From assembly GCA_013298595.1 (NCBI GenBank), contig JAAFIG010000002.1, positions 62,001-126,000 on the forward strand: DNA of 64,000 nt. Reading direction: 5' to 3'. Both the position numbers and the translations under genes were made by a program. Positions 25,721-47,974 of this stretch are shown one piece after another (within the stretch, counting starts at the first letter, position 1; each line of letters opens with the position of its first letter). Below the pieces are notes generated by a model, which made no database searches, was not told the origin of the DNA, and saw only the letters and a program-made list of their open reading frames with translations. This stretch comes from Deinococcales bacterium. Lineage in GTDB: Bacteria; Deinococcota; Deinococci; Deinococcales; JAAFIG01.

Positions 25721-25727
25721 ACCACCC

Positions 25728-25766
25728 GCTCGAGATCAGAAAGTCTTGTCTCGAGCCACACTTTTT
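25728..25766 (+). terminator. CTCGAG-stem terminator
   Basis: GCTCGAGA (25728-25735) pairs with TCTCGAGC (25749-25756), followed by CACACTTTTTG. Inverted copy of the hairpin at 8636. Confidence 0.65.
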
Positions 25767-25859
25767 GTTCTGCTCACGTTACCTACTGTATGCAAAACGC
25801 TTGTTGCAGCACCATAAACCTCCCATTGAACTTGCTGCACCCATTAAGGAGCAAACCCC

Positions 25860-27387: not shown

Positions 27388-30249
27388 ATGACCGAAGTTT
27401 TAACTGGACTGGACTGGCAAATCAAAACCCTTCGCAGCCGTGTGATGAATAACCAACACAAAGTATTTGCAGTTGTTGGTGCAGATGGGCTGGGCAAGTC
27501 TTTTACGGTTCAAACCATGTTGCAGCAATTACCGTGGGCTGTGCTAAGTGTTCCAGCCACCGAATCACTAACGGCGCTTCTTGGGCGTTTAACGGTACTG
27601 AATCCCGAAGCAATTCAGTGGACTGCAGAGACCGTCAATACCCTCGAGTCTGGACAAGACTTACCGAACCATCAGGTTTTACCGTTGCTACAAACCCAAC
27701 TGATGGCATTAGCACCAATTGCAATTCATCTTGAAAATATTGAAAATGTGCAACCGTGGTTGGCTTTTATCAGAACCGCTCAATCAATTCGGGGAGTAAC
27801 CGTTGTTGCCACCAGCCGTCATTCCTTACCAGCAGTATTCAGCGAAATCCGATTAGCTTATTTCAATCAATCACAAATTCAGGCTTTACTCGAGCAACAT
27901 GGGTATGTACTACCTACTCAAGCCATCACATGGTTGTATGCTCGAGCCAACGGCAACCCTCGGTATACCCTCGAGTTTTGTTTGCAACTCTGCCAAATAG
28001 GGGCATTACGCAACGACGCTGGGCAATGGGTCTGGTCTGAACCTCAACAGATTATTGTGCCACTTGGTTTACAAAGCGAAATGACTGAACAACTCGAGGT
28101 TTTGGTTGCTCAAGTCTCAGATCCGCAAAAAGCAAAAATGGTTTTATTAACCAGAGCCTTAGTTACCACCGAGGTATTAGCCAACCAATACTTACCTGCT
28201 TTTATTGGCATTCAAATACAAGCCGAACTGGAAAAAGTTACTCTCAAACAACAATTAGGCAATAAAAACGGATTTTACAATCCTTTATTCAACGATTTAC
28301 TCCGCCAAGATGTCTGGCAGACCGAACGGCGCTTAATTGCTCGGACTTTACTCGAGCCTGTTGGTGCAAAGCAACCTAAAGCAGCAATCCAATTGATACA
28401 AGCTGCACAACTCGAACCCAGTGCCGAATTAGCTGCTTGGCAACTGATTGCCGAACAAGCTATGCAATTACAAATGCTTAGTGTTGCAGGAGAATGCTAT
28501 ATCGCTGCTATGGAACTCTGCACAGGTACTTTACAAGCCGATTTTGCTTTAAAAGCCTCGAGATGCGTTCGTTTGTCCAATCGAGCAAAATCGTTACAAC
28601 TAATCAATCATGCCATGAGTATTGCACCAAATAACGAAACATACCAACTCGAGCGTTGCAAAGCCTTATTAGCTAACGGGCAACTTGAACCCTTACAAGC
28701 ATTTTTACAAACCAAAGATCAGCAAAATCCCGCTTGGCTTGAATTACACTTACAAACCTTATTTCGGTCAGGTCAAGACCAAAAAGCCCTTGACTTATGG
28801 CAAGAAAACCTTTTGTTACAACCATTGTTATGTGAAACAACCCACCAACAAGTAGCAACAGGATTTTTACGAATGGGTCAACAAAAACAGGCTTTTATAA
28901 TTCTTGAACAAAAAAAATCAGTGGCTCGAGATGTCATCACAGCTGTTGGTTTGCGCCAAATCGGACAGTTAAATGCAGCACTTACTTTGCTGAAACAAAC
29001 CTTAGAAACCGATATGGCAAAATTACAACTCGAGTCTGTTTTACATCAAAGAGCTTTAGTACATCAGGAACTAGGTAATTTACCAGCAGCCATGCACGAT
29101 GCCGAAAATGCGCTCGAGATTCTACAAATCTGTGGTGACGAATTTAGAATCGCTGCACGTAAAAACACCTTAGCTGGAATCCTGATCGAACGAGCTGAAT
29201 TTGTAATTGCTGAACAATTATTGCTCGAAGCCAGACGCATCATAGAGCATTTTGGATACTCACAACAATTGGTGTGTATCGAAAGAAATTTAGCTTGGCT
29301 ATATCTCGAATGGCAACCAGAAATGGGTGGGGCTTTGGCGGTAAAACACGCCAGAAATGCTTTACGTCATGCCCGAACCATATGTGGTGTCACAGAATTA
29401 CATGAACACTTAGTTTTTATTGCCTGGGCAGAAGCTTTACATGGCAACCCCAAAACGGCTTTGCAACTCATACTCGAAACACCACGTTCAAGTGCCTTTA
29501 GTCAATGGGTGCATTTGCTTTGCTTAGAGAACACTGGTCAAAAAAATATGGCACAATTGTTTAAAACATGGCTGCGAGACCAACCATACTCCACTCGCCG
29601 CACACGATTTGCTTTGGAATTACAACGACTGACCAAAACAACAAAAACATTACCCCACGAAATGACCGAAAACCCATTAACTTTATTCATTGCAAAACGT
29701 TACTTTCCAACACTTAATCAAACAAATCTAACCGCAAATACACATAAACTCGAGGTGCTAGGAACACTCAAAGTCAATGGCATTATTATGTCTGGCAGGT
29801 TGCGTCGAGCCAAAGACATTTTACTGTTACTACTAGAAGCTCGGATTATGGGTAAACCCGAAGTCACACTCTTAGAATTAATGGATGTCCTCTATCCAAA
29901 CGAAGACGAAATACAAGCCTCGAGTGCAATTCGGCAACTGATTTACCGCTTGCGTAAAACATATGGTGATAATGTAATTACACGTAGCTTACACGGATAT
30001 TCACTAGGAATCCTTTCGGATGTCGAAGAATTCTTAGCAACAAACAACACCTTACTATGGCAAGGTTTATACCAATTTCGAGCAGATAGTGACTCGAGTG
30101 TCAGCACTGCCATTCATCAGCACTTAGAAAAGTGTATTGAGAATTTACGCCACCACAATCCCAGTGAAGCAGCTCGAGTGCAAAGATTTATCCCTCGAAT
30201 GTATCTCAAAACAACTAAAAATACGGATTTACTTGTACTAGAAGCCTAA
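27388..30249 (+). CDS. MalT/SARP-like regulator: ATPase, TPR, winged helix
   Basis: 953 residues. An N-terminal STAND-type ATPase has a Walker A motif (VVGADGLGKSF, residues 29-39) and a later VVATSRH segment. The middle (about 340-740) is helical with TPR-like repeats. The C-terminus (about 785-890) is a winged-helix domain of the kind found after TPRs in transcription activators (LEVLGTLKVNGIIMSG, RAKDILLLLLEARI, SSAIRQLIYRLRKTYGD, LHGYSLG). Such proteins bind an inducer, oligomerise with ATP and activate transcription. It follows the cytoplasmic RCC1 gene by 48 bases and precedes tnsA by 74; whether it belongs to the transposon-like cluster is undecided. Confidence 0.82.
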   Translation: MTEVLTGLDWQIKTLRSRVMNNQHKVFAVVGADGLGKSFTVQTMLQQLPWAVLSVPATESLTALLGRLTVLNPEAIQWTAETVNTLESGQDLPNHQVLPLLQTQLMALAPIAIHLENIENVQPWLAFIRTAQSIRGVTVVATSRHSLPAVFSEIRLAYFNQSQIQALLEQHGYVLPTQAITWLYARANGNPRYTLEFCLQLCQIGALRNDAGQWVWSEPQQIIVPLGLQSEMTEQLEVLVAQVSDPQKAKMVLLTRALVTTEVLANQYLPAFIGIQIQAELEKVTLKQQLGNKNGFYNPLFNDLLRQDVWQTERRLIARTLLEPVGAKQPKAAIQLIQAAQLEPSAELAAWQLIAEQAMQLQMLSVAGECYIAAMELCTGTLQADFALKASRCVRLSNRAKSLQLINHAMSIAPNNETYQLERCKALLANGQLEPLQAFLQTKDQQNPAWLELHLQTLFRSGQDQKALDLWQENLLLQPLLCETTHQQVATGFLRMGQQKQAFIILEQKKSVARDVITAVGLRQIGQLNAALTLLKQTLETDMAKLQLESVLHQRALVHQELGNLPAAMHDAENALEILQICGDEFRIAARKNTLAGILIERAEFVIAEQLLLEARRIIEHFGYSQQLVCIERNLAWLYLEWQPEMGGALAVKHARNALRHARTICGVTELHEHLVFIAWAEALHGNPKTALQLILETPRSSAFSQWVHLLCLENTGQKNMAQLFKTWLRDQPYSTRRTRFALELQRLTKTTKTLPHEMTENPLTLFIAKRYFPTLNQTNLTANTHKLEVLGTLKVNGIIMSGRLRRAKDILLLLLEARIMGKPEVTLLELMDVLYPNEDEIQASSAIRQLIYRLRKTYGDNVITRSLHGYSLGILSDVEEFLATNNTLLWQGLYQFRADSDSSVSTAIHQHLEKCIENLRHHNPSEAARVQRFIPRMYLKTTKNTDLLVLEA

Positions 30250-30323
30250 AATATATACCACTTCGCAAAACTATTTCACTTAAAACTCGAATCAAGTCTA
30301 TTAAACCTGACGGAGCGTTGAGT

Positions 30324-31019
30324 ATGAAAATCCGCATATCATACCGAGATATCCATGAGCAATATCATACTGAATTACCCCTCGAGCAATTACCAGTAAT
30401 TGAACAACTACGATGGATACGACAAGAATGGTCACACAGTAAGCAAAACCACACCCCGTTAATGTTTTATTTCTCGAGCTTAAAACGATTAGTCTACTGT
30501 GAAAGCTATTTAGAAGCACAAACACTGCTGGATCTCGATTTTCGAGGTGAAACAAATTGTATCGTTGAACAACCATTTATCTTACATTACAACAAGAAAT
30601 TTCATATCCCCGATTATGTTCTACGGCAAGGTTTTACAACCATATTGATCAATGTTAAACCAAAAAAATTTCTTGAAACTCCAGAGAATATTACTGATTT
30701 TGCATTGGCATCTGAAGCAGCGCGGCAATTGGGCTGGATGTACCAAACTGTATCAGAATGCAATCCACAATATCTCGAAAATATCAATTGGTTAGGTTCA
30801 TTTAAGCACAGACCGTTTCAAGTTGAAACTTATGAAGTTGAGATTCTGAAGTATCTGAACCAATCATCAACGCTGCTCGAGTTGCTTAAACATTTCAAAA
30901 ACGATTTCATCGTAAAACCAATAGTTTTCTATTTACTGTGGCATCGGCGTATTCAAACCAGTTTAGATCAGCGATTCTCATTGCAAATGCCGTTATGGAA
31001 ATCAACGGAGTATTCATGA
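30324..31019 (+). CDS. tnsA: TnsA-like transposon endonuclease
   Basis: 231 residues. The ATG at 30324 has GGAG 8 bases upstream; the TTG at 30318 is too close to it. The layout matches the PD-(D/E)xK fold of TnsA: acidic residues E60/E64 in CESYLEAQ, D97 in HIPDYVL, K112 in ILINVKPK (the Q-x-K of Tn7 TnsA is N-V-K here). A C-terminal helical part follows (about 165-231). In Tn7-like elements TnsA cuts the non-transferred strand at the 5' ends, so transposition is cut-and-paste. The stop overlaps tnsB by ATGA. Confidence 0.85.
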   Translation: MKIRISYRDIHEQYHTELPLEQLPVIEQLRWIRQEWSHSKQNHTPLMFYFSSLKRLVYCESYLEAQTLLDLDFRGETNCIVEQPFILHYNKKFHIPDYVLRQGFTTILINVKPKKFLETPENITDFALASEAARQLGWMYQTVSECNPQYLENINWLGSFKHRPFQVETYEVEILKYLNQSSTLLELLKHFKNDFIVKPIVFYLLWHRRIQTSLDQRFSLQMPLWKSTEYS

Positions 31020-33094
31020 ATAAGTGGAACTTAGAGATTAACAATCTATATTTATGGTGTGATGAACACGTCAAACTAATGCGATTTGTCAATCAACAAG
31101 TAATCCTCGAACGTGAAAATGGTCAAGTCATAACTATGAAGACTTCTGAATTCGTCAGTAAATATCCTATACCAGTCAATGCTGATCCCTCCTTGATCAT
31201 ACAGCCAACGCCATCAATTTTTGACAATATCTCTAAATCAGCTCTTAAACAAGTTGACGTATTACAAGCTCACCTCGAGATTGCAATTCACGGTATCGAA
31301 CCAATGAATGAAAGTGAAACATGCTACGATGCAGAGTTAACCACGTTAACGTGTCGGATGAAAAAAAAGGCAGAAGAACTGAAAATGGATTTAAGCTCTT
31401 TCTGGCGAAAGAAAAAAAAGTATGAGCGATTTGGGCGATATGGTTTAATAGATCGTCGTTCATTACCGCTAGCACGCAGTAAACGCAATGATTCAGACCC
31501 AGTAGTCTTAACAATTGAAAAAGTACTGAAACAAACTATTGGTGCTTCTGATGTAACGAATATAATTCTATATAGAAAAATCAAGAAACTATTGATACAA
31601 GACTATGGTGATACAGTCTCATTGCCATCGGTTGCGACGCTAAACAGATTATTAGCAGAAATAAGGCATCGATTAGGGATATATGGTAATGCTAATCAGC
31701 GTCAAAAATCTGCGCTAACACCTAAAAAACTATTTGGTTCTTTTCGTTCTACACACCCAGGGCAACTGGTAATGTTCGATAGTACAAAACTTGATATGTT
31801 TGCACTCGACCCAATGAATAACGATTGGATTCAAGTTGCTTTGACTATTGCCTTTGATTTTTATTCTCGTTCAATTATTGGCTGGCGGTTCACACCTGTA
31901 GATACTAAAGGAGTAGATGCAGCTTTAGTTTTGTTTGATGTATTACATCCAAAAATTGCAATGCCAGATTGGGCAGATATTGCTCATTGGAATTATTTTG
32001 GAGTACCAAGTGATATTCGCATTATTGAATACACCAATGATGATTCAAGCATACAGATTGCAGCTGTGCCATTTGTACAACCAGATACAGTACTAATCGA
32101 TCATGGCAAGGTTTTTATCTCGCATACATTTCAAGATGTTTGCACAAGACTTGGTATTCATATTCAACGAGCGCGTATCCGTCGTCCAACGGATAAATCG
32201 CCAGTAGAGAATGTATTTAAGCATATATCTCAGGATTTTTGTCAGCGATTGCCTGGATATAAAGGGCGCAGTATTGCTACTAGAGGCATAGACATTGAAA
32301 AGAAAGCTTTTTATTACATTGAAGAAATCGATACGCTTTTTGCTGAATGGGTTGCGACTAAGTGGCAAAATCACATACCAAGATCGTTGCATTATCCTGC
32401 ATCAGGAGCCGTTGAAGCTGATGTAACCCCTAATGATGCTTATACATTAGGTTTAACCCAAACTGGTTTTATACCGATACCAAATCTGGTTTACTTCGAT
32501 TGTCTTGAGACCGAATACCGTATTGTTAGTGAAAGTGGAATTACCATTCAATACCTTGAGTATGACAGTATTGAACTCGAGCCATTTCGTAATTATCCAT
32601 CCGAGATTAGATCAGGCATTCATAAAGGAGATTATAGGATCAAAGCTGACCCACGAGACCGTAGTCAAATTTTTTTCTTCGATGAAATCCGCAAAACATG
32701 GATCACTATTCCGTGGCGTGGAAAACAGCATTTTTCACATCCATTTAGCGATCTAACACTTGCTTTTGCAAAAGCAACAGCCATTGAACATTTACATGGA
32801 AAAAAACCAACTAATGACGAAATTCGTTTTGCTTTGGAGGAAATGTATTCGCGTTGGGAGGCGAAAGAGTTTAGAACTCGCCGAGAGCGTCGTGTTGCTG
32901 CTCGAGATAAAATCCTAACCCAGCAAGCCCAAAAAGATCGTCTGCAAAAAAGTAAATCTACAGCATTAAATACTATTCCAGCAGCTGAGTTGAATCAATC
33001 AAATCAACCAATGATTCCAGAAGATATTAACGGTATTTTCAAGCGTTTTGACCAAATTAAAAGCTTGTATCAGGAGGATGATGATGAGTTCTAA
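31016..33094 (+). CDS. tnsB: TnsB-like DDE transposase
   Basis: 692 residues from the ATG coupled to the tnsA stop, with GGAG 5 bases upstream. A helix-turn-helix region lies near residues 110-160 (MKKKAEELKMDLSSFWRKKKK). The rve-type catalytic domain shows D255 (LVMFDSTKLD), D362 (TVLIDHGKVF) and E398 (KSPVENVF), with exactly 35 residues between the second and third, the classic DD(35)E. A Mu-type C-terminal domain follows (RSGIHKGDYRI region), and the tail probably contacts TnsC. It would bind the transposon ends and join 3' ends to target DNA. Only three CTCGAG occur in 2.1 kb, fewer than in neighbours. Confidence 0.94.
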   Translation: MNKWNLEINNLYLWCDEHVKLMRFVNQQVILERENGQVITMKTSEFVSKYPIPVNADPSLIIQPTPSIFDNISKSALKQVDVLQAHLEIAIHGIEPMNESETCYDAELTTLTCRMKKKAEELKMDLSSFWRKKKKYERFGRYGLIDRRSLPLARSKRNDSDPVVLTIEKVLKQTIGASDVTNIILYRKIKKLLIQDYGDTVSLPSVATLNRLLAEIRHRLGIYGNANQRQKSALTPKKLFGSFRSTHPGQLVMFDSTKLDMFALDPMNNDWIQVALTIAFDFYSRSIIGWRFTPVDTKGVDAALVLFDVLHPKIAMPDWADIAHWNYFGVPSDIRIIEYTNDDSSIQIAAVPFVQPDTVLIDHGKVFISHTFQDVCTRLGIHIQRARIRRPTDKSPVENVFKHISQDFCQRLPGYKGRSIATRGIDIEKKAFYYIEEIDTLFAEWVATKWQNHIPRSLHYPASGAVEADVTPNDAYTLGLTQTGFIPIPNLVYFDCLETEYRIVSESGITIQYLEYDSIELEPFRNYPSEIRSGIHKGDYRIKADPRDRSQIFFFDEIRKTWITIPWRGKQHFSHPFSDLTLAFAKATAIEHLHGKKPTNDEIRFALEEMYSRWEAKEFRTRRERRVAARDKILTQQAQKDRLQKSKSTALNTIPAAELNQSNQPMIPEDINGIFKRFDQIKSLYQEDDDEF

Positions 33095-34244
33095 ACCTAA
33101 CTTGGAAGGTTTTGGCAACAATGAAACTGAAATGTATTTAGAAGAAGCTCCTATTTCGGAAATCAACAATTTTGATGAATGGCTTCATTTTGTTTACGAA
33201 CCAATATCAATTCGTCCCGATGTACCTACGCCCATAGAGTTTGCCGAAATGAGTCAAAAACAGAAAAAAAATTCGTGTACATTGCGTTTTCAGCATATTG
33301 CACGATTTCAACCGATTTCTACGACATCACGGAATAAAATCATTGATACCTTACTGCAGAGACTTCATGTGAACCGTATTGGAGGTCGTGGTGCTCGAGG
33401 AAGCGCTGTATTAACGGGCTACCCTTACATTGGAAAAACAACAATAGCTGTGGATATTGGCAGACGCTATGATCTTGATATGCGGAAACTTCTCAAAAAG
33501 AGAACAGGTCAAGAACTTTTTATTCCAGAAACAAATGATCGCTTTATCCCTGTAATTTATGTGTGTTTAAGCAGCGAAGATGTCTCCAACCTGAAAGCGT
33601 TGTATGCAACTTTTGCTCGATTCTTAGGTATACCAAAATATGAAAAAAAGACAACCAAACAACTCGAAGATGCTGTTGTTAAATGGGCGAAAGCTTGTCA
33701 AACAAGTTTTATCATCGTAGACGAAATTCATTATATTGATATTCGTTCGCGTGGTGTACGAAAAACCAATAATGCTATTAAAACACTGATGAATCGAATT
33801 CCTGCCACATTTTTATTCGCTGGGATTGAGTGTGAAAACACAGGAATCTTTTTTGACCATGACAGTGATCAAAAACGTAAAGCTGACCCAAGATTAGCGC
33901 AATTAAATCATCGCTGCTTAAAACTCGAACTAAAACCGTTTCAAAGTCTTTATGGTAATTATCAAGAAGGTATCAAACTTATCAATACAATTGACCAAGA
34001 AATCGTACTAGTGAATCATCAAACAGGCGATTTGGTTCAACTAGCACCTTATATTCTAGCTAGAACAAATGGTCATATTGGAAGTATTCGGGATTTTATT
34101 TCACTAGGGTGTTATAAGGCTTTAAAAGAGAAAACCGAACGTCTCACCAAAGAGATATTAGAAGAAATTCAGCTTGATAACGCGGCTGAAACAGCTTATC
34201 AAAATTATTTGGCAAGCAATCCACCCGCCCTCGAGACATACTAA
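33084..34244 (+). CDS. tnsC: TnsC-like AAA+ ATPase
   Basis: 386 residues. Three ATGs in a row follow AGGAGG; the third (33084) is best spaced, overlapping the tnsB end by 11 bases. Walker A is GYPYIGKTT (residues 112-120) and Walker B is FIIVDEIHYID (D213 E214). A sensor-type Asn/Arg region follows (LLFAGIECENTG). The length is close to the TnsC of CRISPR-associated transposons and shorter than Tn7 TnsC (555). It should form filaments on target DNA, linking TniQ/Cascade to the transposase and providing target immunity. Confidence 0.93.
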   Translation: MSSKPNLEGFGNNETEMYLEEAPISEINNFDEWLHFVYEPISIRPDVPTPIEFAEMSQKQKKNSCTLRFQHIARFQPISTTSRNKIIDTLLQRLHVNRIGGRGARGSAVLTGYPYIGKTTIAVDIGRRYDLDMRKLLKKRTGQELFIPETNDRFIPVIYVCLSSEDVSNLKALYATFARFLGIPKYEKKTTKQLEDAVVKWAKACQTSFIIVDEIHYIDIRSRGVRKTNNAIKTLMNRIPATFLFAGIECENTGIFFDHDSDQKRKADPRLAQLNHRCLKLELKPFQSLYGNYQEGIKLINTIDQEIVLVNHQTGDLVQLAPYILARTNGHIGSIRDFISLGCYKALKEKTERLTKEILEEIQLDNAAETAYQNYLASNPPALETY

Positions 34245-34257
34245 GCCTACGAGTCTT

Positions 34258-35406
34258 ATGAATAATCAACATCATCCACTCAACCGCCAATTTCCAAAGC
34301 GTGCCAATCTTAAAGCTGGTAATGCGTTGATTCCCCAATTGATCGAACTGGCTCGAGATTTGGAAATTACAACAGAAGACTTATCAGCATTTCTCGAGGT
34401 CAGATTTGGGTTGGTACAAACAGCATTTGATCGTTTGCCATTCTTGACAACTCGAGAAATGGAGCAACTAGCACATGAGTTCGGCGTTTCAGTGCAAACG
34501 ATAGAAGAAACCACCGCAGCCTATTTCTCGAGCAGAATTGGTACATCTCAGGATTCTGAACTACAGGAGCTTTTAGTTCCCTTTACCAAACGTCTTAAAG
34601 TATGCCCAAAGTGCCTACAAGAAAAACAAAACTACCAACTATCTTGGCAAGTTTCGTGGTCTTTTGTCTGTACTCGACATCACGTTTTGCTCCAAGATAT
34701 TTGTCCACACTGTGAGTATCCAATCGCTTCTAAACGTCGCACAACAGGCATTCCTGTTGAACATTTCCGCTGCGGTAATCACATTGTCAACCAAAGTGTT
34801 TGCCATGAACGACTGGATCAACTTCCTCGAGTCTCTGTGGCAAACTACCCCGCAATTCTGAAAGCCCAAAATATTCTTGAAGCTGTTATCAATGGTAAAT
34901 CGGTTTTGATATTTAACCAAACGGTTGTTCCGAAAGTGTTCTTGCAGAATTGTATTGCACTTCTTAAAATTCTTTGGGGATTTATTGTGCCAGAACAGTT
35001 AGCCTCGGCTCCAATCAAATGCACAGGTGCATACCATCAATTTACCCGCGCTCGAGAAAAATATTTTCAATACCTCGAGCAGGAAAATCCGCTCGAGGAC
35101 TCACCTGCTGCTATTTCTAGGCTTTGGGGAACACTTGATTTGATGACTGGCACAATGCCTTTGGTTTTAGAGATTCTTGCTTTATCCTCGAGACAAGCTA
35201 TGGTGAATAGACTGATTGCCCTGATACAACAAAGCTGTTATCAAAGACCCCAATACCCACTTTGGATTTTGCAACACTTTGAACGACAAGCCATTGAAAA
35301 TCACCATTGGATGTACACAATTAAGGAGTTGCAAAATTGGCTTAGAAGGACGTACTTTTTAAGAAAGGAGGTAGTGGCGCATGTACCAAACCCTTATCCA
35401 CTTTAA
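34258..35406 (+). CDS. tniQ: TniQ-family target adaptor
   Basis: 382 residues from the ATG at 34258, 13 bases after tnsC. The zinc-binding set is C116xxC119, C138xxH141, C149xxC152, in a KVCPKCLQEKQNYQLSWQ context typical of TniQ. Helical DNA/protein-binding domains follow. The length matches the short TniQ that docks on Cascade in type I-F CRISPR-associated transposons rather than the longer TnsD proteins that read a fixed attachment site. It is the only TniQ/TnsD homologue in the window. Its end overlaps cas6e by 26 bases. CTCGAG is dense here (nine copies). Confidence 0.92.
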   Translation: MNNQHHPLNRQFPKRANLKAGNALIPQLIELARDLEITTEDLSAFLEVRFGLVQTAFDRLPFLTTREMEQLAHEFGVSVQTIEETTAAYFSSRIGTSQDSELQELLVPFTKRLKVCPKCLQEKQNYQLSWQVSWSFVCTRHHVLLQDICPHCEYPIASKRRTTGIPVEHFRCGNHIVNQSVCHERLDQLPRVSVANYPAILKAQNILEAVINGKSVLIFNQTVVPKVFLQNCIALLKILWGFIVPEQLASAPIKCTGAYHQFTRAREKYFQYLEQENPLEDSPAAISRLWGTLDLMTGTMPLVLEILALSSRQAMVNRLIALIQQSCYQRPQYPLWILQHFERQAIENHHWMYTIKELQNWLRRTYFLRKEVVAHVPNPYPL

Positions 35407-35953
35407 TCCTTCCTCTCCTCATGCTCAACGATTGCTAGACCAACCTTACCGAATCCACTACATGCTCGAGCATATTAATACAAGTAGAACGCGAATATTA
35501 TGGCGTTTAAGCGAAGATCGATTGCTAGTTAGGCATATTAACCCTCTTGACTGGACTGAACTTGATAAAACGCATCCAAGCCTTGGAGATAGAAGTCATA
35601 CACAGGTGAACTTAGATTTGCCTTTGGGAACAATTCACCTGTTCAACTTGTTCGCGTTTATTTGTAAGCCAGATGACAACGGAAAATGGAAAGTACAACA
35701 ACCCAAACAGTATATTGATTGGCTTATTAAGCGTTCCAAACACATTGGTTTTGAATTACGTGAGATCCAAATCAACAAAGCCCCTGATCACTTTGTCCGA
35801 ATGAACAGCGCTCAAATTAGAGCGCAGCCAATGAAGGTATCTGGAATTTTACAAATTACAGATACAACTGCCTTAATACATAGTTTGGAAAGTGGAATAG
35901 GAAGGATGCGTGCTTATGGTTGTGGAATGTTAATATTGCAACCAATTGGATAA
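35381..35953 (+). CDS. cas6e: Cas6e crRNA-processing endonuclease
   Basis: 190 residues. AGGAGG lies 9 bases before the ATG, inside the end of tniQ, so the two are one operon. The N-terminal PYRIHYML places a His at residue 26, where Cas6e/Cse3 of Thermus has its catalytic His. A central KQYIDWLIKRSKHIGFEL segment and the C-terminal glycine-rich loop SGIGRMRAYGCGMLIL are standard Cas6e features. It would cut the repeat hairpin of the array that starts 46 bases downstream and stay bound as a Cascade subunit. Confidence 0.93.
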   Translation: MYQTLIHFNPSSPHAQRLLDQPYRIHYMLEHINTSRTRILWRLSEDRLLVRHINPLDWTELDKTHPSLGDRSHTQVNLDLPLGTIHLFNLFAFICKPDDNGKWKVQQPKQYIDWLIKRSKHIGFELREIQINKAPDHFVRMNSAQIRAQPMKVSGILQITDTTALIHSLESGIGRMRAYGCGMLILQPIG

Positions 35954-35973
35954 ATACTTAGAAACTTTATAAT
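35946..35973 (+). promoter_or_regulatory. CRISPR leader promoter
   Basis: TTGGAT (35946-35951) and a perfect TATAAT (35968-35973) are 16 bases apart. Transcription would start near 35980, about 20 bases before the first repeat. The -35 overlaps the cas6e stop. Confidence 0.6.
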
Positions 35974-35998
35974 AGTGAAGTTTTGTCTGTTTCAAGCC

Positions 35999-36380
35999 GT
36001 TCTGCCCTCACGTGTAGGGGTCATCCGTAATTGCTGTAGTTGAAGTAAGAATTCTTGTAGTTCTTTCCTTACGTGTAGGGGTCATCCGCGAAACAGCTCT
36101 ACAAAAACCATTGTTCCGCGTTCTTCTCTCACGCGTAGGGGTCATTCGGCGACGAACAGGTTTGATTTTCCAGATTCTTGAGTTCTTCCTTCATGTGTAG
36201 GGGTCATCCAATGTGAATAGAGTCATTGCACATATGTTACCGCGTTCTTCCCTCATGTATAGGGATCATCCGAAAGGAGTTGTGGAACGCCAAACCTCTT
36301 TCGGTGTTCTTCCCTCACGCGTATGGGTTATTCGGCTGCATCTAGCATCGTGTATTTCTCTCACGTATAGGGATCATCCA
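35999..36380 (+). CRISPR. Type I-E CRISPR array, seven degenerate 29-bp repeats
   Basis: Repeats at 35999-36027, 36060-36088, 36120-36148, 36182-36210, 36244-36272, 36306-36334 and 36352-36380. Consensus GTTCTTCCCTCACGTG then TAGGGGTCATCCG, with a CCCT/AGGG stem as in type I-E repeats. Spacers are 32, 31, 33, 33, 33 and 17 bases. No two repeats are identical; most changes are transitions. A very weak eighth repeat may lie at 36409-36437. The orientation matches the cas genes. The array lies between cas6e and cas8e, an unusual place. None of the spacers was seen elsewhere in the window by eye. Confidence 0.92.
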
Positions 36381-36453
36381 GCACAAACACGAGTTCAAGT
36401 TTCATTGGGTACTTTTCTTTTCGTGAGAATCACTCTCTTCTAAGGTCTACAAC

Positions 36454-37638
36454 ATGAATCTACTATTTGATGCTTGGATTCCAACAACAAATTCACTTCA
36501 ATCCCTTGTTTCAGTTCTTGAGAATGCAAATTCTTTGCAGCTTTTTTCTCGAGGAACTCAATTTGCTTCTATTTTGCGGTTGCTGCTGGCGATTTGTTAT
36601 CAAAGTGGTGAAACCAGTCAAACATTAATACGAAATGGCATTAGTAATAAAACATTTAAGCATCTCGAGCAGTACAAAAACGCTTTTGATCTTCATCATG
36701 GTTTTTTGACTTGCCCAGACCTTGATGCCGATTTGAGCACCATGGCAAAATTGATTCCGTTGTTACCTTCGGGCAATACCATCGTTTTTTTTAATCATGC
36801 TCGAGATGATCAATTTCCCATTGTTTCTAGCGACGAACTAGCTCGTTATGTCCTTGATTATCATGCTTTTGCTGCCGCAGGAGGTCAAAGTGTAACTGGT
36901 TATCGTGGGCTTAGCCCTTGTGTTGATGTGGTTCTTGGGATAGCAATTGGAGAAACTCTACTCGAGACACTCGCCCTTAATTTAGTACCTGATTCGCGTC
37001 TGCAAAGCGCAAGCTGGACACTTTCTCGAGTCACTAAACAAGATTTTCAAGATAATAGACGGCAGACAGCTGGAAGTCTCGCAGGGCAGTATTCATGGCT
37101 TGGGCAAGCAGTTCGGTTATTTGAGCATGGTGTTGGTACAGCCAAAGGCTTTAAATTACGCTTTGACTCTGACCCGATGATGAGCAAAAAGATTGATCGA
37201 AATGGTCAACTAATAAGCTTTGTGCGTCCAGAGTCATTTGAGCCTATTCTTTTAGCTGCTCGACTGATGGGTTTGCAGTCTATTTGTGCAGCAACTTTTT
37301 CACATGCACAAAGTTTGGATATTCCTTTCCAGTGGCGAGTCATTTCGCAAGTCAGTTCTCCAACCCACAAAGTCAAAGTGCTTGAAACGATTGATTCGGT
37401 GTATTCACCACAAACCCTAGACCTTCAAACATTAGCTCGAGTTCTTGCCATTCGAGGCGAATTGGTAAAACACCAGTCTGAATTTGTGGCTCGAGCTTTT
37501 GTGTCTACTTTTGAGGATTTTTTAAGACTTAACCAAACTATTGAACTTGATTCGTTTGTAGAACAATACCCTTTTCAAACGGATAATAAATTACTGGGGA
37601 TACTTCGCAAATTAACTCGGAAGGCAATAGGTGAATAA
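36454..37638 (+). CDS. cas8e: Compact Cas8e (Cse1) Cascade large subunit
   Basis: 394 residues; usual Cas8e proteins are near 500. The opening LLFDAWIPT is the family signature. LPSGNTIVFFNHARDDQFPI, ELARYVLDYHAFAAAGGQSVTG and GETLLETLALNLVP match the conserved core. The C-terminal helical bundle (from about 270) is short. In type I-E the protein recognises the PAM, and its C-terminal bundle contacts Cse2; no cse2 gene follows, so cas8e may be adapted to its absence. Cas7e begins 3 bases after the stop. In a transposition complex it would find the PAM but not recruit Cas3, for which there is no gene. Confidence 0.86.
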   Translation: MNLLFDAWIPTTNSLQSLVSVLENANSLQLFSRGTQFASILRLLLAICYQSGETSQTLIRNGISNKTFKHLEQYKNAFDLHHGFLTCPDLDADLSTMAKLIPLLPSGNTIVFFNHARDDQFPIVSSDELARYVLDYHAFAAAGGQSVTGYRGLSPCVDVVLGIAIGETLLETLALNLVPDSRLQSASWTLSRVTKQDFQDNRRQTAGSLAGQYSWLGQAVRLFEHGVGTAKGFKLRFDSDPMMSKKIDRNGQLISFVRPESFEPILLAARLMGLQSICAATFSHAQSLDIPFQWRVISQVSSPTHKVKVLETIDSVYSPQTLDLQTLARVLAIRGELVKHQSEFVARAFVSTFEDFLRLNQTIELDSFVEQYPFQTDNKLLGILRKLTRKAIGE

Positions 37639-37641
37639 TTT

Positions 37642-38865
37642 ATGCTCATTGAAATCCACTGTATTCAATCGGTCCCTATATCTCACTTGAATTCTGATAG
37701 AAATGGTCAACCCAAGACAGTCATGTACGGCGGTGTTCTTCGTGCCCGAATCTCGAGTCAAGCTCAAAAACGCAGTTTAAGGCTCTTTATTCATGAGCAT
37801 GGGCTTTTAGATGTGCTGGATTTCGCGTATCGAACAAGGCGTTTTACGCAACTGGCTGCTGAAAAACTTGAAAAATTAGGTATACAGCAAACAGAAGCCC
37901 TAAATTTGGCAGTTCGTTCGATGGCTGCCCTCAAGCTTGGGCATAAAGAAAAAGCTAATGAGGATGACCCTGTACTGAACGAATTCTTGATCTTTTTTTC
38001 AGAGTCAGAATTACAAGCGTTTGCCAATACAATTTATGAGCATCAGTCTGTAATCTCGAGAATCAACATGGATGTCCATAAAGAACTCGATGCTATAGAC
38101 GCAGTTGAAGGCGAGAAGAAAAAACAAAAATCCAGTAAGTTGACCAAGGCTGAAATCAAATCGGCAATCAAAAAAGAATTCCCACTTGAGGTGATTAAAG
38201 CCCTACAAAACCCCTTTATTGAAACTCGTTCTCTTGAAATGAATTTATTGGGGCGGCAACTCACCAACTTTCCTGATGGTACAGTAGATGGGCAAGTTCA
38301 AGTCGCCCATGCTTTTTCCGTGGATGAAAGTCGTACCACACAAGACTTCTTTACTGCTGTTGATGATTATGCCTTTAAGGGCATGACAAAAGTAGGTATG
38401 CTTGAAGAGATTGGCTTCAATGCACCAACACTATATCGTGTGGCTGCGGTTAACGTCTCTCAGCTTGCTGAAGCTTCTGGCGATCTTGCCGCTGCCAAAC
38501 GCGGGGCTGCCGCTTTTTTAGAGGCATTTGTGTCCACATTAGCGCACGGTGGGCAAAACTCTTTTCTCAGCCTTACTGTTCCGAGTTTTGTATTGATCCA
38601 AATCGTTGATAAAGGTCATGCTTTATCGTATGCCCCAGCGTTTCTTAAACCTGTCCAAAGCAGCAAAGAGTTCAGCACTGCTGAGGCTGCTATTGTGCAG
38701 TTATCCCGATACATTGAATACCAAGAGGCTGCTTTTCCTCGATTTAAGCGTTCACACAAAGTATTTTTTAGTCAAACAGATCAAGATTTCAAAGGTGCTA
38801 AACGAGTCATCGGAATTGACCAAGCAATCAAATTTATTCTAGGCAAAATCGGGGATGAAAAGTGA
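37642..38865 (+). CDS. cas7e: Cas7e (Cse4/CasC) Cascade backbone
   Basis: 407 residues, a little longer than usual. The N-terminus MLIEIHCIQSVPISHLNSDR, then TVMYGGVLRARISSQAQKRSLR, is diagnostic of type I-E Cas7. A lysine-rich insert EGEKKKQKSSKLTKAEIKSA lies near residues 153-175. VAHAFSVDESRTTQDFFTAVDDY and LAHGGQNSFLSLTVPSFVLI are also conserved. Several copies form the backbone along the crRNA. In other CRISPR-associated transposons TniQ docks on the Cas6/Cas7 end of the complex. The stop overlaps the cas5e GTG start. Confidence 0.96.
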   Translation: MLIEIHCIQSVPISHLNSDRNGQPKTVMYGGVLRARISSQAQKRSLRLFIHEHGLLDVLDFAYRTRRFTQLAAEKLEKLGIQQTEALNLAVRSMAALKLGHKEKANEDDPVLNEFLIFFSESELQAFANTIYEHQSVISRINMDVHKELDAIDAVEGEKKKQKSSKLTKAEIKSAIKKEFPLEVIKALQNPFIETRSLEMNLLGRQLTNFPDGTVDGQVQVAHAFSVDESRTTQDFFTAVDDYAFKGMTKVGMLEEIGFNAPTLYRVAAVNVSQLAEASGDLAAAKRGAAAFLEAFVSTLAHGGQNSFLSLTVPSFVLIQIVDKGHALSYAPAFLKPVQSSKEFSTAEAAIVQLSRYIEYQEAAFPRFKRSHKVFFSQTDQDFKGAKRVIGIDQAIKFILGKIGDEK

Positions 38866-39353
38866 AACAGGTTCGTCTTTGTTTGGAAGGTCTACTGCAA
38901 GCATGGGGCGTGGATAATGCGCTTCAGCGTCGCCGTACTCATAACCAACCGCAACGACGAACCGTTTTTGGATTGATTCGGGCTGCAAAAGGACTCAAAC
39001 GACATGAATCTTGGGAAGCTCTCGAGACACTTGATTTCAAGTGTGAAATCCATAAAGCTGGGTATCGAATGTGGGATTTTGCTTCTATGTCTAATATTAT
39101 TCGTGCCAATGGTGAAGGCATTCAAGACCAAGCTATTCAAGAAAAAGAGTATCTGGTTGATGCAGCATTCATAGTCACCCTAACAGGCAAAGATCAACTC
39201 ATTGATGAAGTCATTGCCGCTCTCGAGGATCCTGTTTTCCTTTTAGGGCTTGGAAGGCGCGATTGTATGCCAACACAACCAATTTTGTCGAATTATGATG
39301 TTGAGATTGATTTAGTCAAAATGTCAAAGAAAGCCAAAACGTACACCATATAG
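38862..39353 (+). CDS. cas5e: Short Cas5e Cascade subunit
   Basis: 163 residues from a GTG overlapping the cas7e stop (GTGA). LCLEGLLQAWGVD is the Cas5 N-terminal motif; RTVFGLIRAAKGLKR and EYLVDAAFIVTLTG and DPVFLLGLGRRDCMPTQPI match Cas5e. Typical Cas5e proteins have about 220-240 residues; here the C-terminal 60-odd are missing after the GLGRRDC segment. It would hold the 5' handle of the crRNA. It is the last cas gene of the operon; no cas1, cas2 or cas3 follows. Confidence 0.93.
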   Translation: MKQVRLCLEGLLQAWGVDNALQRRRTHNQPQRRTVFGLIRAAKGLKRHESWEALETLDFKCEIHKAGYRMWDFASMSNIIRANGEGIQDQAIQEKEYLVDAAFIVTLTGKDQLIDEVIAALEDPVFLLGLGRRDCMPTQPILSNYDVEIDLVKMSKKAKTYTI

Positions 39354-39655: not shown

Positions 39656-39946
39656 CTAACCACTACTGCTTTTTCGAGGTCGTTTATTGCTTGGGAATGG
39701 CATTACCAGTTCTTTTGCACTTGGCAAAGCTAATAGCTTTGCAATTGGTATCTGGAGCTGAGTGGATACTTGCATGATTGTCTCGAGGGAGGGATTGGTG
39801 CGTTTGGCATTTTCAGACTCAAGTATTTGGTATGTTCGCAAGGGTAAACCAATCAATTCGGATGCTTCTTCTTGGGATAAGCCTTTTTTTAACCGAGCTT
39901 TACGAATTCGGAGTCGAAAAGCTCGGAGGAAAGCAGCGTCAAACAC
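39656..39946 (-). CDS. Xre-family HTH regulator
   Basis: 96 residues from a GTG at 39946. The helix-turn-helix is plain: LKKGLSQEEASELIGLPLRTYQILESENAKRTNPSLETIMQV, with LQIPIAKLLAL closing the domain and a basic tail KRPRKSSSG. No strong ribosome site precedes it. It is divergent from the operon at 40188 and convergent with cas5e. Xre regulators control guide and tniQ expression in type I-F3 CRISPR-associated transposons, so a similar job is possible here; no operator was identified. Confidence 0.8.
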   Translation of the reverse strand: MFDAAFLRAFRLRIRKARLKKGLSQEEASELIGLPLRTYQILESENAKRTNPSLETIMQVSTQLQIPIAKLLALPSAKELVMPFPSNKRPRKSSSG

Positions 39947-40187: not shown

Positions 40188-40772
40188 ATGCCAAACACTC
40201 TCGAGACCAACAACCCCGATTATGAAGTACAAATCAACCAGCAATACCATGCTTTTCTGGTCTGTAACGTCTTCATTAACGATTCTGGACGTGGTAAACA
40301 AGTACAAATCATCATCGAAGGTAAAGCTTACAAAGCTGTTGTCAGTGTTGAAGCATTACGTGTATCACCAAATTTAACTGGTCAATGGCGAGCTACTTTG
40401 CACATTCGTTGTAAACCCGATGGCACACTAGACAAAACCATGTCCCTAAGACGAATTCGGGCATTAAGCCCACAAACTACTGATCAACCTGCTTTCTGGG
40501 CTTGTACAGGTGATGTTACCAGTATTGATGTAAAAACAGGCTTACTCAAAGTTCGTATTTATCCTGGTAGACGCAAAGCCAGTGTTTTTTCCTTATTCGT
40601 TCAAGCCAGTCCTATTGTGCTCGAGCAAATTTCCCAAGCGAAATTTGTGCATCTAACAGGAACACTCGAAAAGCATTCATTGGTTGTGCAACATTTTGAA
40701 CCTCGAGATAGTGTTGATGCTGTCTTACAGGGTTTGAATGAGATTGAATCTGACAGGAGCAGTCATAAATGA
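40188..40772 (+). CDS. Hypothetical protein, paralogue of the next gene
   Basis: 194 residues. AAGGAG precedes the ATG by 10 bases. Shared with the next protein are WRATLHI, FWACTGDV, VRIYPGRRK, FVHLTGTLE and HFEP, so the two are ancient duplicates. The pattern of short beta strands suggests an OB-fold-like or beta-barrel domain, possibly nucleic-acid-binding, but no known family is recognised. The stop overlaps the next start (ATGA). It is first in a four-gene operon. Confidence 0.75.
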   Translation: MPNTLETNNPDYEVQINQQYHAFLVCNVFINDSGRGKQVQIIIEGKAYKAVVSVEALRVSPNLTGQWRATLHIRCKPDGTLDKTMSLRRIRALSPQTTDQPAFWACTGDVTSIDVKTGLLKVRIYPGRRKASVFSLFVQASPIVLEQISQAKFVHLTGTLEKHSLVVQHFEPRDSVDAVLQGLNEIESDRSSHK

Positions 40773-41485
40773 AATCTAATACAGTAGAAACACCAGTACT
40801 TCAATCCTTAGTAACTATCCCTGTTCTCAAGCCAAAAGGTTTGAACATCGCATATCAACATCATTTCTTTGTCCAAACCAATATCACCATCAGAGACACC
40901 AGTCAAGCAACTCGAGTCTGGTTAGACCTAGACTCTGATAATGGTTCATTCCTAGCTCGAGTGCATTCTAAAGTCTTTGCACAATGGCAAAAATCACATC
41001 CAGAGCAAAGCTCGGTCAATCTTTCTGGTGTATGGCGAGCCACTTTGTATGGTCAAACAATGCCAAATCAGTCCCTCAAGTCCTTACAGATAATTCGATT
41101 AACTCCTCTCGAGAATGCCATTGATCTGAATGGACAAAGTACCTTCTGGAGTGCAGCAGGTAAAGTCCTACGCTTAGACCGAGCTGAACGCATTGTAATC
41201 ATTCGGGTGTACCCAAGAACCAAAGGGTTTGAACCATTTGTGATCAGTGCTAAAACCACCCTCGAGTTACTGAACCTAGTTCAAGATGCCTGGTATGTGC
41301 ATATGACAGGTGTAGTTGAACAAGGGTACTTAATTGCTCAGAACCTCGAGCCAATGCGTTTAGATATTCCAAGCGTGTGGAAAGACTGGATTCCACCAAG
41401 TAAACGCAAAGTCATACTCGAGAATACCTTAAACAGTGAATCCAGTGACTCTTCATTGGATGCTGGTACAAATCTTGGATTTTAA
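40769..41485 (+). CDS. Hypothetical protein, paralogue of the previous gene
   Basis: 238 residues, coupled to the previous gene by ATGA. Conserved blocks against its neighbour: WRATLYG, FWSAAGKV, IRVYPRTK, VHMTGVVE and NLEP. The N-terminal 35 and the C-terminal 45 residues are extra, the latter acidic/serine-rich. No signal peptide, catalytic motif or known family. The retained pair suggests a heteromer. Confidence 0.75.
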   Translation: MKSNTVETPVLQSLVTIPVLKPKGLNIAYQHHFFVQTNITIRDTSQATRVWLDLDSDNGSFLARVHSKVFAQWQKSHPEQSSVNLSGVWRATLYGQTMPNQSLKSLQIIRLTPLENAIDLNGQSTFWSAAGKVLRLDRAERIVIIRVYPRTKGFEPFVISAKTTLELLNLVQDAWYVHMTGVVEQGYLIAQNLEPMRLDIPSVWKDWIPPSKRKVILENTLNSESSDSSLDAGTNLGF

Positions 41486-41496
41486 GGGGTATGAGA

Positions 41497-41967
41497 ATGA
41501 AACAAGCCTTAGTTTATCTTCAAGTCTTACAAAGTATCTTTGTTGTGGTTAATCGAATAAATACTCGAGCTAATGCAGTAATGAACGTAGTGCACGTGGC
41601 ATGGGAATTTTACTTAGCTATGCCAACACAAGATTTAGCGTTAGACGTGATTCATTTAGTGACGGTGCAAACAAGGAATTATCGACAGGTGACCTATGGT
41701 ATTTCAGTGCAAGAAATGAATCTAAATGTAGTAGAAAAACACTCAGTCGAATTTGCAAGGGATCTCGAAGAAGCGCTACTGACTTGTGTAACTCTTTTTG
41801 AATCTGACCAAGCTACTTCTGGTTTACGGCAAGTTAAAAGAAAGATCAAAATGAGTTTCGTGCTTAATGAACAATGCCAATGGACTTTTAAGCACGCTTC
41901 TCAGCAAAGTAAAAGTGATTTATTACAAATTCTTGAATTTAGCATCAACCCCAAGGTTATCAAATGA
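41497..41967 (+). CDS. Hypothetical protein
   Basis: 156 residues from the ATG at 41497, 7 bases after AAGGGG; the ATG at 41491 is too close to it. The N-terminal half is hydrophobic/helical (LVYLQVLQSIFVVVNRI, NVVHVAWEFYLA) without clear membrane segments; the C-terminal half is mixed. No family recognised. It lies 11 bases after the upstream gene and overlaps the next by 4. Confidence 0.65.
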   Translation: MKQALVYLQVLQSIFVVVNRINTRANAVMNVVHVAWEFYLAMPTQDLALDVIHLVTVQTRNYRQVTYGISVQEMNLNVVEKHSVEFARDLEEALLTCVTLFESDQATSGLRQVKRKIKMSFVLNEQCQWTFKHASQQSKSDLLQILEFSINPKVIK

Positions 41968-42296
41968 TGCGTGGTAAACCTGCTTACACATCGGAATTCA
42001 AACTCCGTATGGTTAAAGAAGTACTCGAGCAAGGTAAAAGACCCAGTGCCGTAGCTCGAGAACATAAGATTCTGGCTTCCACATTGTTTTCTTGGCGGGC
42101 TTTGTATGAACGGTTCGGTGAAGCTGCGTTTACAATGGTTGAGCAAAGCAGTTTACTTGAGGTGGAGAACATCAATTTGCAAAAGCAACTCGAGCGATTA
42201 AAATCTCAGGAGATCGTTTTTGAGCGGTTACTGGGCAAAATGACGCTCGAGAATCATCGGTTGCGAGAACAATTAAGTCTGCGCCTATCTGTGTAA
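41964..42296 (+). CDS. OrfA-like HTH protein (IS3-type transposase subunit) without OrfB
   Basis: 110 residues. RGKPAYTSEFKLRMVKEVLEQGKRPSAVAREHKILASTLFSWRALYERFG is the HTH of IS3-family OrfA / transposase-8 proteins, followed by a leucine-zipper-like coiled coil (VENINLQKQLERLKSQEIVFERLLGKMTLENHRLREQL). No integrase-core OrfB follows, and no IS3 terminal repeats were found. It is translationally coupled to the upstream gene, so it looks like a domesticated DNA-binding protein, not a live insertion sequence. Confidence 0.75.
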   Translation: MMRGKPAYTSEFKLRMVKEVLEQGKRPSAVAREHKILASTLFSWRALYERFGEAAFTMVEQSSLLEVENINLQKQLERLKSQEIVFERLLGKMTLENHRLREQLSLRLSV

Positions 42297-42639
42297 CAGT
42301 ACAAATACCACAGCTCCAAAAGATAGCAATTGTTACTTTAGTAACAGTAAATAGGAGGAAGTTATAACATTTGGGTGAATTAGGAGACTACGTCAAATAC
42401 AGTATTTAGGCAACTCTTACATAATTTGATTCAAATCACTCTTATATGCAATGATTTGTGATGAATATACATTGTGTTTAACGTAGATGGCAGTTACAGA
42501 TTAAATGATTTTCTATAATGTTATAGAAAATCATTTGATCTGCAACTAAATCACTGTATATAAGAGTGACTTGAGAGTAAATCAAGCTACTTGAGAGTAA
42601 AACAAAGTTAAAACTACCATTTCCTTTGCCATCAATCTC
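42297..42639. other. Convergent intergenic gap rich in repeats
   Basis: 343 bases between convergent genes. ACTCTTACAT (42413) and ACTCTTATAT (42438) form a loose direct repeat; TCACTCTTATAT (42436-42447) is inverted at 42558-42569; CTTGAGAGTAA recurs 20 bases apart at 42570 and 42590. A long palindrome lies at 42493-42546. Spacing of about 20 bases between direct repeats is what transposase-binding sites at a Tn7-like end would look like, but no terminal TGT/ACA boundary or partner end was identified. Confidence 0.45.
42493..42546. repeat. Long AT-rich palindrome
   Basis: AAATGATTTTCTATA (42503-42517) is the exact reverse complement of 42522-42536, loop of four. The pairing extends outward to 42493/42546 with two imperfect positions. 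It sits between convergent genes, so it could end transcription from both sides. Confidence 0.7.
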
Positions 42640-43560
42640 TTAATCACGTGGGTAAAGTAGTTTTGCAGTTGCAATCCATCCCTCACGGGCACTTGGATAC
42701 TTTGGAACCCAGCCAGTTGCAATGCAAAAGCGTTTGTTACTCACGCGTAATGACCATGTAAGTGACGTTGAACGATCACCAAGCAGTAATGCTGCTCGTC
42801 CAGGAACGCGTAACCAAGCTGTTTTACCAGCAGCGGCTGCAAGTGCATTGGCATATTCACGCTTTTGTAAAGGTTCATCATCAACGATATTGTACGTTCC
42901 CGCTGCTACATTTAAAGCTGCGACTACAGCTGTATCTGCGTCGCTCACGTGAATAGATGACACGTATCCGTTAGGCGATCCCATTTGTACACAGATATGA
43001 TGGCGAGCCAATGCCAAAAATTCTTCGCTGTGTTTTGCGCCCGGTCCGTAAAACCAACCAAACCGTAATACAACACCTATGCTTCCACTGGTTGTAAAAC
43101 GATTTGCATTTGCTTCGGCAGCCAGATTAGCTCGAGCCATTGGATACTGGTCCGTTGGCATAGCCTCGTCAATCCAAGCTGAACCATTATCTGGATAAAG
43201 CATGCTGACCGACTCTTGGATAACTCGAGTAACACCTGCGGCAAGGGCAGCATCTACGATGGCGGTTGAACCTTCGACTCGAACTTTTTCGTTTGCAACC
43301 CAAGCATTTGAATTCATAAACTGAGCTGTCGGTGGAATAGCAGAGGTTAAGTTGATAACTGCGTCTTGCCCTTTAAACACTTTGGTCAAGGCTGACCTGT
43401 CAAACACGGATACATTGACTGCTTTTGCGCCTTGAAGCTCGAGCATGGCGGCTTTTTCTGATGTTCGTGCCAGTGCAGTGACTGTATGCCCAGCATCAAT
43501 GAGTGCTTGAGTGGCATATTTACCACTTGCACCTGTGCCACCAGCAATGAATACCTTCAT
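42640..43560 (-). CDS. NAD(P)-binding epimerase/reductase-like protein
   Basis: 306 residues. MKVFIAGGTGASGKYATQALIDAG carries the GxxGxxG nucleotide-binding motif at the very N-terminus. It is followed by HTVTALAR and DAVINLTSAIPP, and an extended-SDR middle region where SVSMLYP and the later sequence do not show a clear YxxxK pair. The family covers NAD-dependent epimerases and NmrA-like regulators; the substrate is unknown. Alone on its strand, possible outside neighbour of the transposon-like cluster. Confidence 0.8.
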   Translation of the reverse strand: MKVFIAGGTGASGKYATQALIDAGHTVTALARTSEKAAMLELQGAKAVNVSVFDRSALTKVFKGQDAVINLTSAIPPTAQFMNSNAWVANEKVRVEGSTAIVDAALAAGVTRVIQESVSMLYPDNGSAWIDEAMPTDQYPMARANLAAEANANRFTTSGSIGVVLRFGWFYGPGAKHSEEFLALARHHICVQMGSPNGYVSSIHVSDADTAVVAALNVAAGTYNIVDDEPLQKREYANALAAAAGKTAWLRVPGRAALLLGDRSTSLTWSLRVSNKRFCIATGWVPKYPSAREGWIATAKLLYPRD

Positions 43561-47910: not shown

Positions 47911-47974
47911 AAGTACTCCTCGAGTTGAACACAAAACTTTTTAAACAGATACTTGGTAACTATCTGGTGCGATT

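Follow-up and report, generated by a model that had tools for sequence, protein, structure and literature searches.

Can a type I-E Cascade serve as the target reader of a Tn7-like transposon? The question is raised by a gene cluster at positions 30324 to 39353 of a 64,000-nucleotide stretch of DNA from an uncultured Deinococcales bacterium (GenBank assembly GCA_013298595.1, contig JAAFIG010000002.1, positions 62,001 to 126,000, forward strand), in the following called the window. In this cluster tnsA, tnsB, tnsC and tniQ are followed by cas6e, an array of clustered regularly interspaced short palindromic repeats (CRISPR), cas8e, cas7e and cas5e. We consider it highly likely that the element is a TniQ-dependent Tn7-type CRISPR-associated transposon (CAST) with a nuclease-free, Cse2-less type I-E Cascade. 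The classification of 2025 lists CASTs from I-F, I-B, I-D, I-C, IV-A, I-A with Mu, and I-E5, the latter a telomeric transposon with an active Cas3 and without TniQ (PMC12669027). A review of 2024 names I-E among the Tn7 captures with no further detail and refers to three papers (PMC11656645); one of these, PMC10293859, does not contain the term I-E. The original prediction, made from the sequence of the locus, knew of no characterised I-E system. This has to be qualified, as I-E5 is described and I-E is listed. In the open-access subset of the literature I-E5 is the only I-E CAST that we found described in detail, and the combination of a TniQ-dependent Tn7 CAST with a Cse2-less I-E Cascade appears to be new.

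Gene content of the locus

Proteins were identified by profile searches with Pfam and NCBIfam models. All eight genes of the window copy are open and located on the forward strand. The first gene, tnsA (30324..31019, 231 aa), codes for a TnsA-like endonuclease of the actinobacterial-type family (NF033179, 1.2e-33, over the cut-off; PF08722, 0.0006). It overlaps by 4 nt with tnsB (31016..33094), whose product reached the rve profile at 4e-6, under the Pfam cut-off, and matched TnsB structures at 7e-14 in a profile comparison to the PDB; the catalytic residues D255, D362 and E398 of a DDE transposase (DD35E) are invariant in an alignment of three homologues. The product of tnsC (33084..34244) is an AAA+ ATPase of the TniB/TnsC kind (TniB 2e-11, AAA_22 5e-12) with the Walker A motif GYPYIGKTT and the Walker B motif FIIVDE, both read in the sequence; if it starts at ATG 33084, the gene overlaps tnsB by 11 nt. 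The short tniQ (about 34255..35406, about 383 aa, start codon uncertain) was recognised by PF06527 (1.4e-12) and by TniQ structures of the PDB (2e-5), and the zinc-finger cysteines are invariant in three homologues. Its end overlaps by 26 nt with cas6e (35381..35953), the gene of the endonuclease processing CRISPR RNA (crRNA), for which TIGR01907 scored over the cut-off and T. thermophilus Cse3 structures matched at 5e-11; the conserved His26 is invariant among the homologues compared. Downstream of the array follow cas8e (36454..37638), cas7e for the Cascade backbone (37642..38865; TIGR01869, 8e-57, over the cut-off) and cas5e (38862..39353; TIGR01868, 2e-21, over the cut-off). Open reading frames and profiles thus confirmed the coordinates, gene order, single strand, overlaps and gene identities of the original prediction.

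The large subunit is unusual. Cas8e has 394 aa in the window versus about 490-560 aa in canonical relatives, and PF09481 matched its N-terminal part only (1e-25), while TIGR02547 remained with 57.8 bits under the 70-bit cut-off. The profile of Cas8e aligns to residues 7-351 of the 502 residues of T. thermophilus CasA. An AlphaFold (AF2) model from three sequences had a predicted local distance difference test score (pLDDT) of 37; with 13 sequences the mean pLDDT was 64 and CasA the best structural match, a quality that suffices to recognise CasA, not to describe contacts. The shortening is a reduced C-terminal helical bundle. In a phylum-wide search the short form occurred only in the window and in the two related elements presented below; the other matches listed were the canonical long form with 28-35% identity.

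Among the open reading frames of the three clusters none was cas1, cas2, cas3 or cse2; a genome-wide profile search for Cse2 or Cas3 was not made. The claimed absence of cas1, cas2 and cas3 holds for the cluster, with cse2 as a further missing gene. The families Cas5e, Cas6e, Cas7e and Cas8e of type I-E are all present, the first three over curated cut-offs and Cas8e, under that of TIGR02547, by PF09481 and the structure match. This agrees with the assigned I-E subtype, and the window effector is a derived I-E effector rather than a complete I-E system, having neither Cse2 nor Cas3.

Related elements and shared gene order

In 84,980 genomes scanned there were only two relatives, one from the same genus (G001) and one from the same family (G007) as the genome of the window (G000), all Deinococcales. 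The order tnsA-tnsB-tnsC-tniQ-cas6e-CRISPR-cas8e-cas7e-cas5e is identical in the three elements. Amino acid identities of the window proteins to those of G001 and G007 were 39 and 44% for TnsA, 42 and 45% for TnsB, 33 and 34% for TnsC, 33 and 30% for TniQ, 41 and 42% for Cas6e, 48 and 49% for Cas8e, 40 and 41% for Cas7e, and 59 and 58% for Cas5e. The catalytic residues are retained in TnsB and Cas6e. The insertion sites are unrelated: behind a BTAD/TPR gene in the window, in the 3' part of rqcH in G001 and in comM in G007. An order kept at 30-59% identity and at different sites indicates that tns and cas genes are mobilised jointly; as judged from these comparisons, the two modules travel together and are not adjacent by chance.

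In the TnsB tree as well as in the Cas8e tree, the three elements form one clade (100/100 each). Both trees place G001 and G007 together and the window copy outside, though G001 is the closest host relative of the window genome. This agreement of the TnsB and Cas8e topologies against the kinship of the hosts suggests, on three taxa, a transfer of the whole element between hosts. The original prediction had asked for the same gene order in relatives and had named two observations that would speak against it, separable tns and cas modules and cas1, cas2 or cas3 with cse2 in relatives. The order was encountered again in two further genomes, each time at a different locus, the modules occur together in three genomes with the same topology, and none of these cas genes is present in the cluster of any relative. 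A TnsB DDE transposase, a TnsC AAA+ ATPase and a TniQ-family adaptor are combined in all three clusters with an effector lacking a target-cleaving nuclease, an array and a Cas6, and no adaptation genes. Tn7-like elements often carry defence systems as cargo (PMC8649781), and the cas genes might accordingly be ordinary defence genes that are mere neighbours of the transposition genes. The lack of cas1, cas2 and cas3, the 26-nt overlap of cas6e and tniQ, the order kept in three elements and the homing spacers at the insertion sites make this extremely unlikely.

Probable homing spacers at the insertion sites

The tnsA-side end of the element is readable in both relatives, as TATGGAAAACTTCCCTACTTGACATTAAGCCACTTGTATATTAC and TAGGGAAAACTGTTTAACTTGACTTTAACGCAAATGTATACTAC, which are identical at 32 of 44 positions; the first one or two bases may be target DNA. 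This end (TAkGGAAAACT...) is located 235-256 bp upstream of tnsA. The last spacer of the G001 array matches rqcH in 24 of 32 positions, preceded by AAG and with 51 bp to the element end. For G007, the last spacer matches comM in 20 of 28 positions, again with AAG in front and 52 bp to the element end. AAG is the canonical protospacer adjacent motif (PAM) of type I-E. The PAM-proximal base and the element end are 80-83 bp apart in the relatives, a geometry in agreement with the insertion distance of roughly 50 bp of CASTs (PMC8649781).

The rqcH guide mismatches its target at positions 3, 6, 9, 15, 18, 21, 27 and 28, the comM guide at positions 6, 12, 15, 18, 21, 24, 27 and 28. In each guide seven of the eight mismatches coincide with the third (wobble) position of a codon, the exception being position 28. 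Every sixth crRNA position is flipped out in type I Cascade, and the wobble positions take these in. One of the rqcH mismatches changes a Trp codon into a stop codon, hence the G001 spacer does not simply reproduce a functional rqcH gene. Neither score was attained by any of 3000 shuffled spacers, and the remaining spacers of both arrays scored 15-18 in the same flank. After correction for positions, strands and spacers, the binomial estimates were 3e-5 for G001 and 1.5e-3 for G007. A wobble-masked pattern of the G007 spacer, searched in four genomes, was found only in comM of G000, G006 and G007 and in the spacer itself; the pattern read backwards as control had zero matches in these genomes. 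In G000 and G006 comM is uninterrupted at this target site and carries AAA at the place of the PAM. The 74-kb contig of G007 holds only the portion of comM past about residue 49 (L024:6944-7069; L087). As comM is a natural-transformation gene, the insertion in G007 may reduce the transformation of the host.

Last spacer, PAM and fixed distance form in both relatives a signature of RNA-guided homing, and these elements very probably choose their insertion site by an RNA guide. The proposal of RNA-guided transposition gains support from these spacers beside the insertion sites; both matches lie in the relatives and not in the window copy. One might assume instead that the TniQ protein guides homing, given that the sister elements without CRISPR use a large TnsD-like TniQ of 770-850 aa, and that Cascade with the last spacer only represses comM or rqcH or blocks a re-insertion. 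We regard this as very unlikely: the TniQ of the element has about half that size, like the TniQ of crRNA-guided CASTs, and the two elements reside in genes with no relation to each other, each matched by the spacer of its own element at one fixed distance.

CRISPR array and ends of the window copy

The array of the window copy (35999..36380, forward strand) consists of seven degenerate 29-nt repeats of I-E type, all mutually different; those folded have predicted hairpins weaker than those of the relatives' repeats. The spacers have 32, 31, 33, 33, 33 and 17 nt. The 17-nt spacer (36335..36351, forward strand), versus 31-33 nt for the others, is the last one and occupies the slot where both relatives have their homing spacer. 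A target for this spacer was not found, nor was a homing target when all spacers were compared to the window, once in full and once with every sixth base left out. In the whole genome, BLAST of the array gave only background, as did patterns of spacers 5 and 6 with the wobble positions masked. A near-match to a window spacer at C24, located in a MarR-type gene, was counted as background as well. Viral contigs contained no relatives of TnsB or Cas8e and no exact match of spacer 5.

Other CRISPR systems are present in the family. The window genome has an I-B-type system containing Cas4, with cas1, cas2 and cas3, and G007 has two I-C systems (together L056, L057 and L058); G001 and G006 yielded no Cas1. 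As no I-E adaptation module was seen in the four family genomes looked at, spacer acquisition must be rare or externally sourced, in line with the diverged repeats.

Paralogues of the BTAD/TPR gene product align up to residue 938 of its 953 residues, which places the tnsA-side end of the window copy in about 30205-30324. This gene, a BTAD/TPR ATPase-type regulator at 27388-30249 adjoining the element, has several paralogues in each of the four family genomes, with 11 matches in G000. An inverted pair at 30265-30279 and 42652-42666 was considered as element ends and rejected, being weak, near chance and within a coding gene.

Several observations weigh against the interpretation as a CAST or limit it. 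The window copy has a 17-nt last spacer, degenerate repeats and weak hairpins, and no protospacer was found beside it, a weak test as the ends of this copy were not located. The end motif of the relatives had no match in the window, and no recognisable end was seen in about 30205-30324. For none of the three copies could a distal end or a 5-bp target-site duplication be detected, with no candidate for a distal end exceeding shuffled controls. A fixed insertion distance from a protospacer of the own array was observed in both relatives and not in the window copy. By itself the G007 match only narrowly leads on its contig (20 vs 19) and draws its weight from place, PAM and mismatch pattern. The rest of comM is missing from the 74-kb contig of G007, so that the insertion is possibly rearranged. 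Finally, neither Cse2 nor Cas11 is encoded in the cluster.

The window copy may be immobile. It could be a remnant of a true I-E CAST lineage, now a relic or otherwise used, a situation compatible with the element being a CAST. The short last spacer without an adjoining protospacer, the degenerate repeats with weak hairpins and the lack of an end resembling those of the relatives point in this direction. Eight intact genes with catalytic residues kept at 30-59% identity speak for long selection and against a remnant. On balance, we hold the remnant for possible, though less probable than not.

Comparison with known systems

Among the characterised systems, the I-F3 CASTs (Tn6677/VchCAST, PseCAST) share with the element a nuclease-free Cascade with separate TnsA, TnsB, TnsC and TniQ, as well as a homing spacer beside an atypical repeat and an insertion about 50 bp past the protospacer. 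I-F3 guides also mismatch their targets at flipped and wobble positions, as in the relatives of the element. In contrast to I-F3, where they are fused, Cas5e and the short Cas8e are separate, and the element differs in its AAG PAM, its gene order and a distantly related TnsB (PDB matches 1e-13). A membership in I-F3 was rejected: neither a Cas8f-Cas5f fusion nor Cas6f was found; the models of Cas5e, Cas6e and Cas7e match instead. The I-B and I-D CASTs likewise have TniQ-family proteins together with a type I Cascade that lacks effective interference, but belong to other subtypes, and I-B homes by a protein (TnsD) instead of a guide. I-B2 and I-D have a fusion of TnsA and TnsB (PMC11406308); in the element the two are separate.

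The described I-E5 variant on telomeric transposons deserves particular attention, since both join I-E cas genes with Tn7-like transposase genes (PMC12669027), and the TnsA of the window falls in the actinobacterial-type family. That the element is a member of I-E5 is nevertheless highly improbable. I-E5 has no TniQ/TnsD and a Cas3 with an active HD domain (PMC12669027), whereas the element has TniQ and neither Cas3 nor Cse2. Moreover, the element inserts within chromosomal genes and has an internal end, which sets it apart from I-E5 as described. Loci with Cas3-less I-E genes on Streptomyces plasmids were excluded as different, with cse2 present and no tnsABC among the annotated neighbours.

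Two further groups resemble one half of the element each. The canonical I-E systems of Deinococcota have homologous Cas5e, Cas6e, Cas7e and Cas8e, 29-nt repeats and the AAG PAM, but their Cas8e has about 500 aa and they possess Cse2, Cas3, Cas1 and Cas2. The Actinobacteria-type Tn7-like elements have the closest outside transposases, with 28-34% identity of TnsB and the same tnsABC order, but most carry a TniQ of about 770-850 aa and no cas genes or array were present in the loci inspected.

Proposed mechanism and origin

Cas6e would cut the array transcript into crRNAs, on which the shortened Cas8e, Cas7e, Cas5e and Cas6e would assemble and then bind a target with an AAG-type PAM. The target would be left intact, there being no Cas3. 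TniQ, from the gene overlapping cas6e, would form a bridge from the target-bound Cascade to TnsC, the AAA+ protein, which would recruit TnsB for strand transfer at the ends and TnsA for the other strand, resulting in cut-and-paste transposition. Insertion would occur about 50 bp past the protospacer with the tnsA-side end facing the target. The last spacer, beside a diverged repeat, would direct homing to conserved genes of the chromosome (comM, rqcH), and the other spacers would serve other targets. We infer complex assembly, protein contacts, cut-and-paste and strand polarity from characterised CASTs, and the docking of TniQ from I-F3 and I-B2, where it binds to Cas6 and to Cas11, Cas7 and Cas6, respectively (PMC11406308). 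A dock on Cas11 like that of I-B2 is impossible here for lack of Cse2, unless an internal start yields a Cas11-like product. A Cascade without Cse2/Cas11, as predicted here, is plausible.

The nearest TnsB proteins outside the family belong to two Deinococcota genomes (G092 and G094, 34% identity), followed by Actinobacteria with 28-33%. The outside TnsB loci that were opened contained mostly tnsA-tnsB-tnsC and a large TnsD-like TniQ, twice the size of that of the element, and beside them neither cas genes nor an array was found. A TnsB clade dominated by Actinobacteria and without a characterised member has been described (PMC8649781). The small TniQ and the cas-free sister loci suggest that a protein-guided Tn7-like element exchanged its target reader for an I-E Cascade. 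We are moderately inclined to see an independent capture of CRISPR by an Actinobacteria-type Tn7 lineage, leading to a five-part system of Cas5e, Cas6e, Cas7e, short Cas8e and TniQ that lacks Cas11/Cse2 and uses a guide from its array to home into conserved coding genes, among them comM. Among the loci inspected, no other crRNA-guided member of this lineage was found.

Accessory genes and genome context

Downstream of cas5e lies on the reverse strand a gene for a small helix-turn-helix regulator (39656..39946; HTH_3, 1e-9). G001 has a small helix-turn-helix gene at the same place, which is not a detected homologue. Two related small proteins of 194 and 238 aa without a Pfam match (40188..41485, forward strand) occur in the same order in G001 (L023:2854-4195) and with one homologue in G007 (L025:76-711). 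G006, a genome without CAST, has a member of this family adjoining copper P-type ATPase genes (L074:8145-8840). They are followed on the forward strand by genes for a 158-aa protein and an HTH_Tnp_1 protein of 110 aa (41491..42296; PF01527, 1e-13), with 28% and 78% identity to G001. As the same order recurs in G001, the genes at 40188-42296 probably belong to the element, the latter two as likely accessory genes. Past these genes, a near-perfect 27-bp hairpin (42492-42547) lies within a second 27-bp inverted pair (42431-42457 and 42548-42574); the nested repeats at 42431-42574 are possibly a small mobile element or a transposon-end region.

The palindrome CTCGAG, which resembles HIP1 of cyanobacteria, occurs 295 times in the window versus 11 copies expected from the base composition. 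The excess is 17-21-fold in contigs from three further genomes of this family (L023, L024-L025, L037-L038 and L074 sampled) and only about 3-fold in G092. Within the element its frequency is 7.8/kb in tniQ and 5.9/kb in cas8e, suggesting a long residence. Elsewhere in the window, translations revealed many tandem paralogous lipoprotein genes with Ig-like and RCC1-type repeats (2270-18900 and 23933-27340), apparently an expanded surface-protein family. A sugar-utilisation cluster at 44848-63449 was likewise read from translations, with xylose isomerase-like and xylulokinase-like genes, glycosidases, an ABC sugar transporter and a LacI-type regulator.

Significance

Type I-E of E. coli is the best-understood Cascade. 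If the element is a TniQ-coupled I-E CAST, the structural and genetic knowledge of I-E gathered over decades would become applicable to RNA-guided insertion, and it would show a docking of TniQ on a Cascade without Cas11. Two loci already reveal natural guides, PAM and insertion distance, which makes the system directly testable. It would also add an origin of CASTs that is apparently independent, within a clade of transposases that has been described as uncharacterised (PMC8649781).

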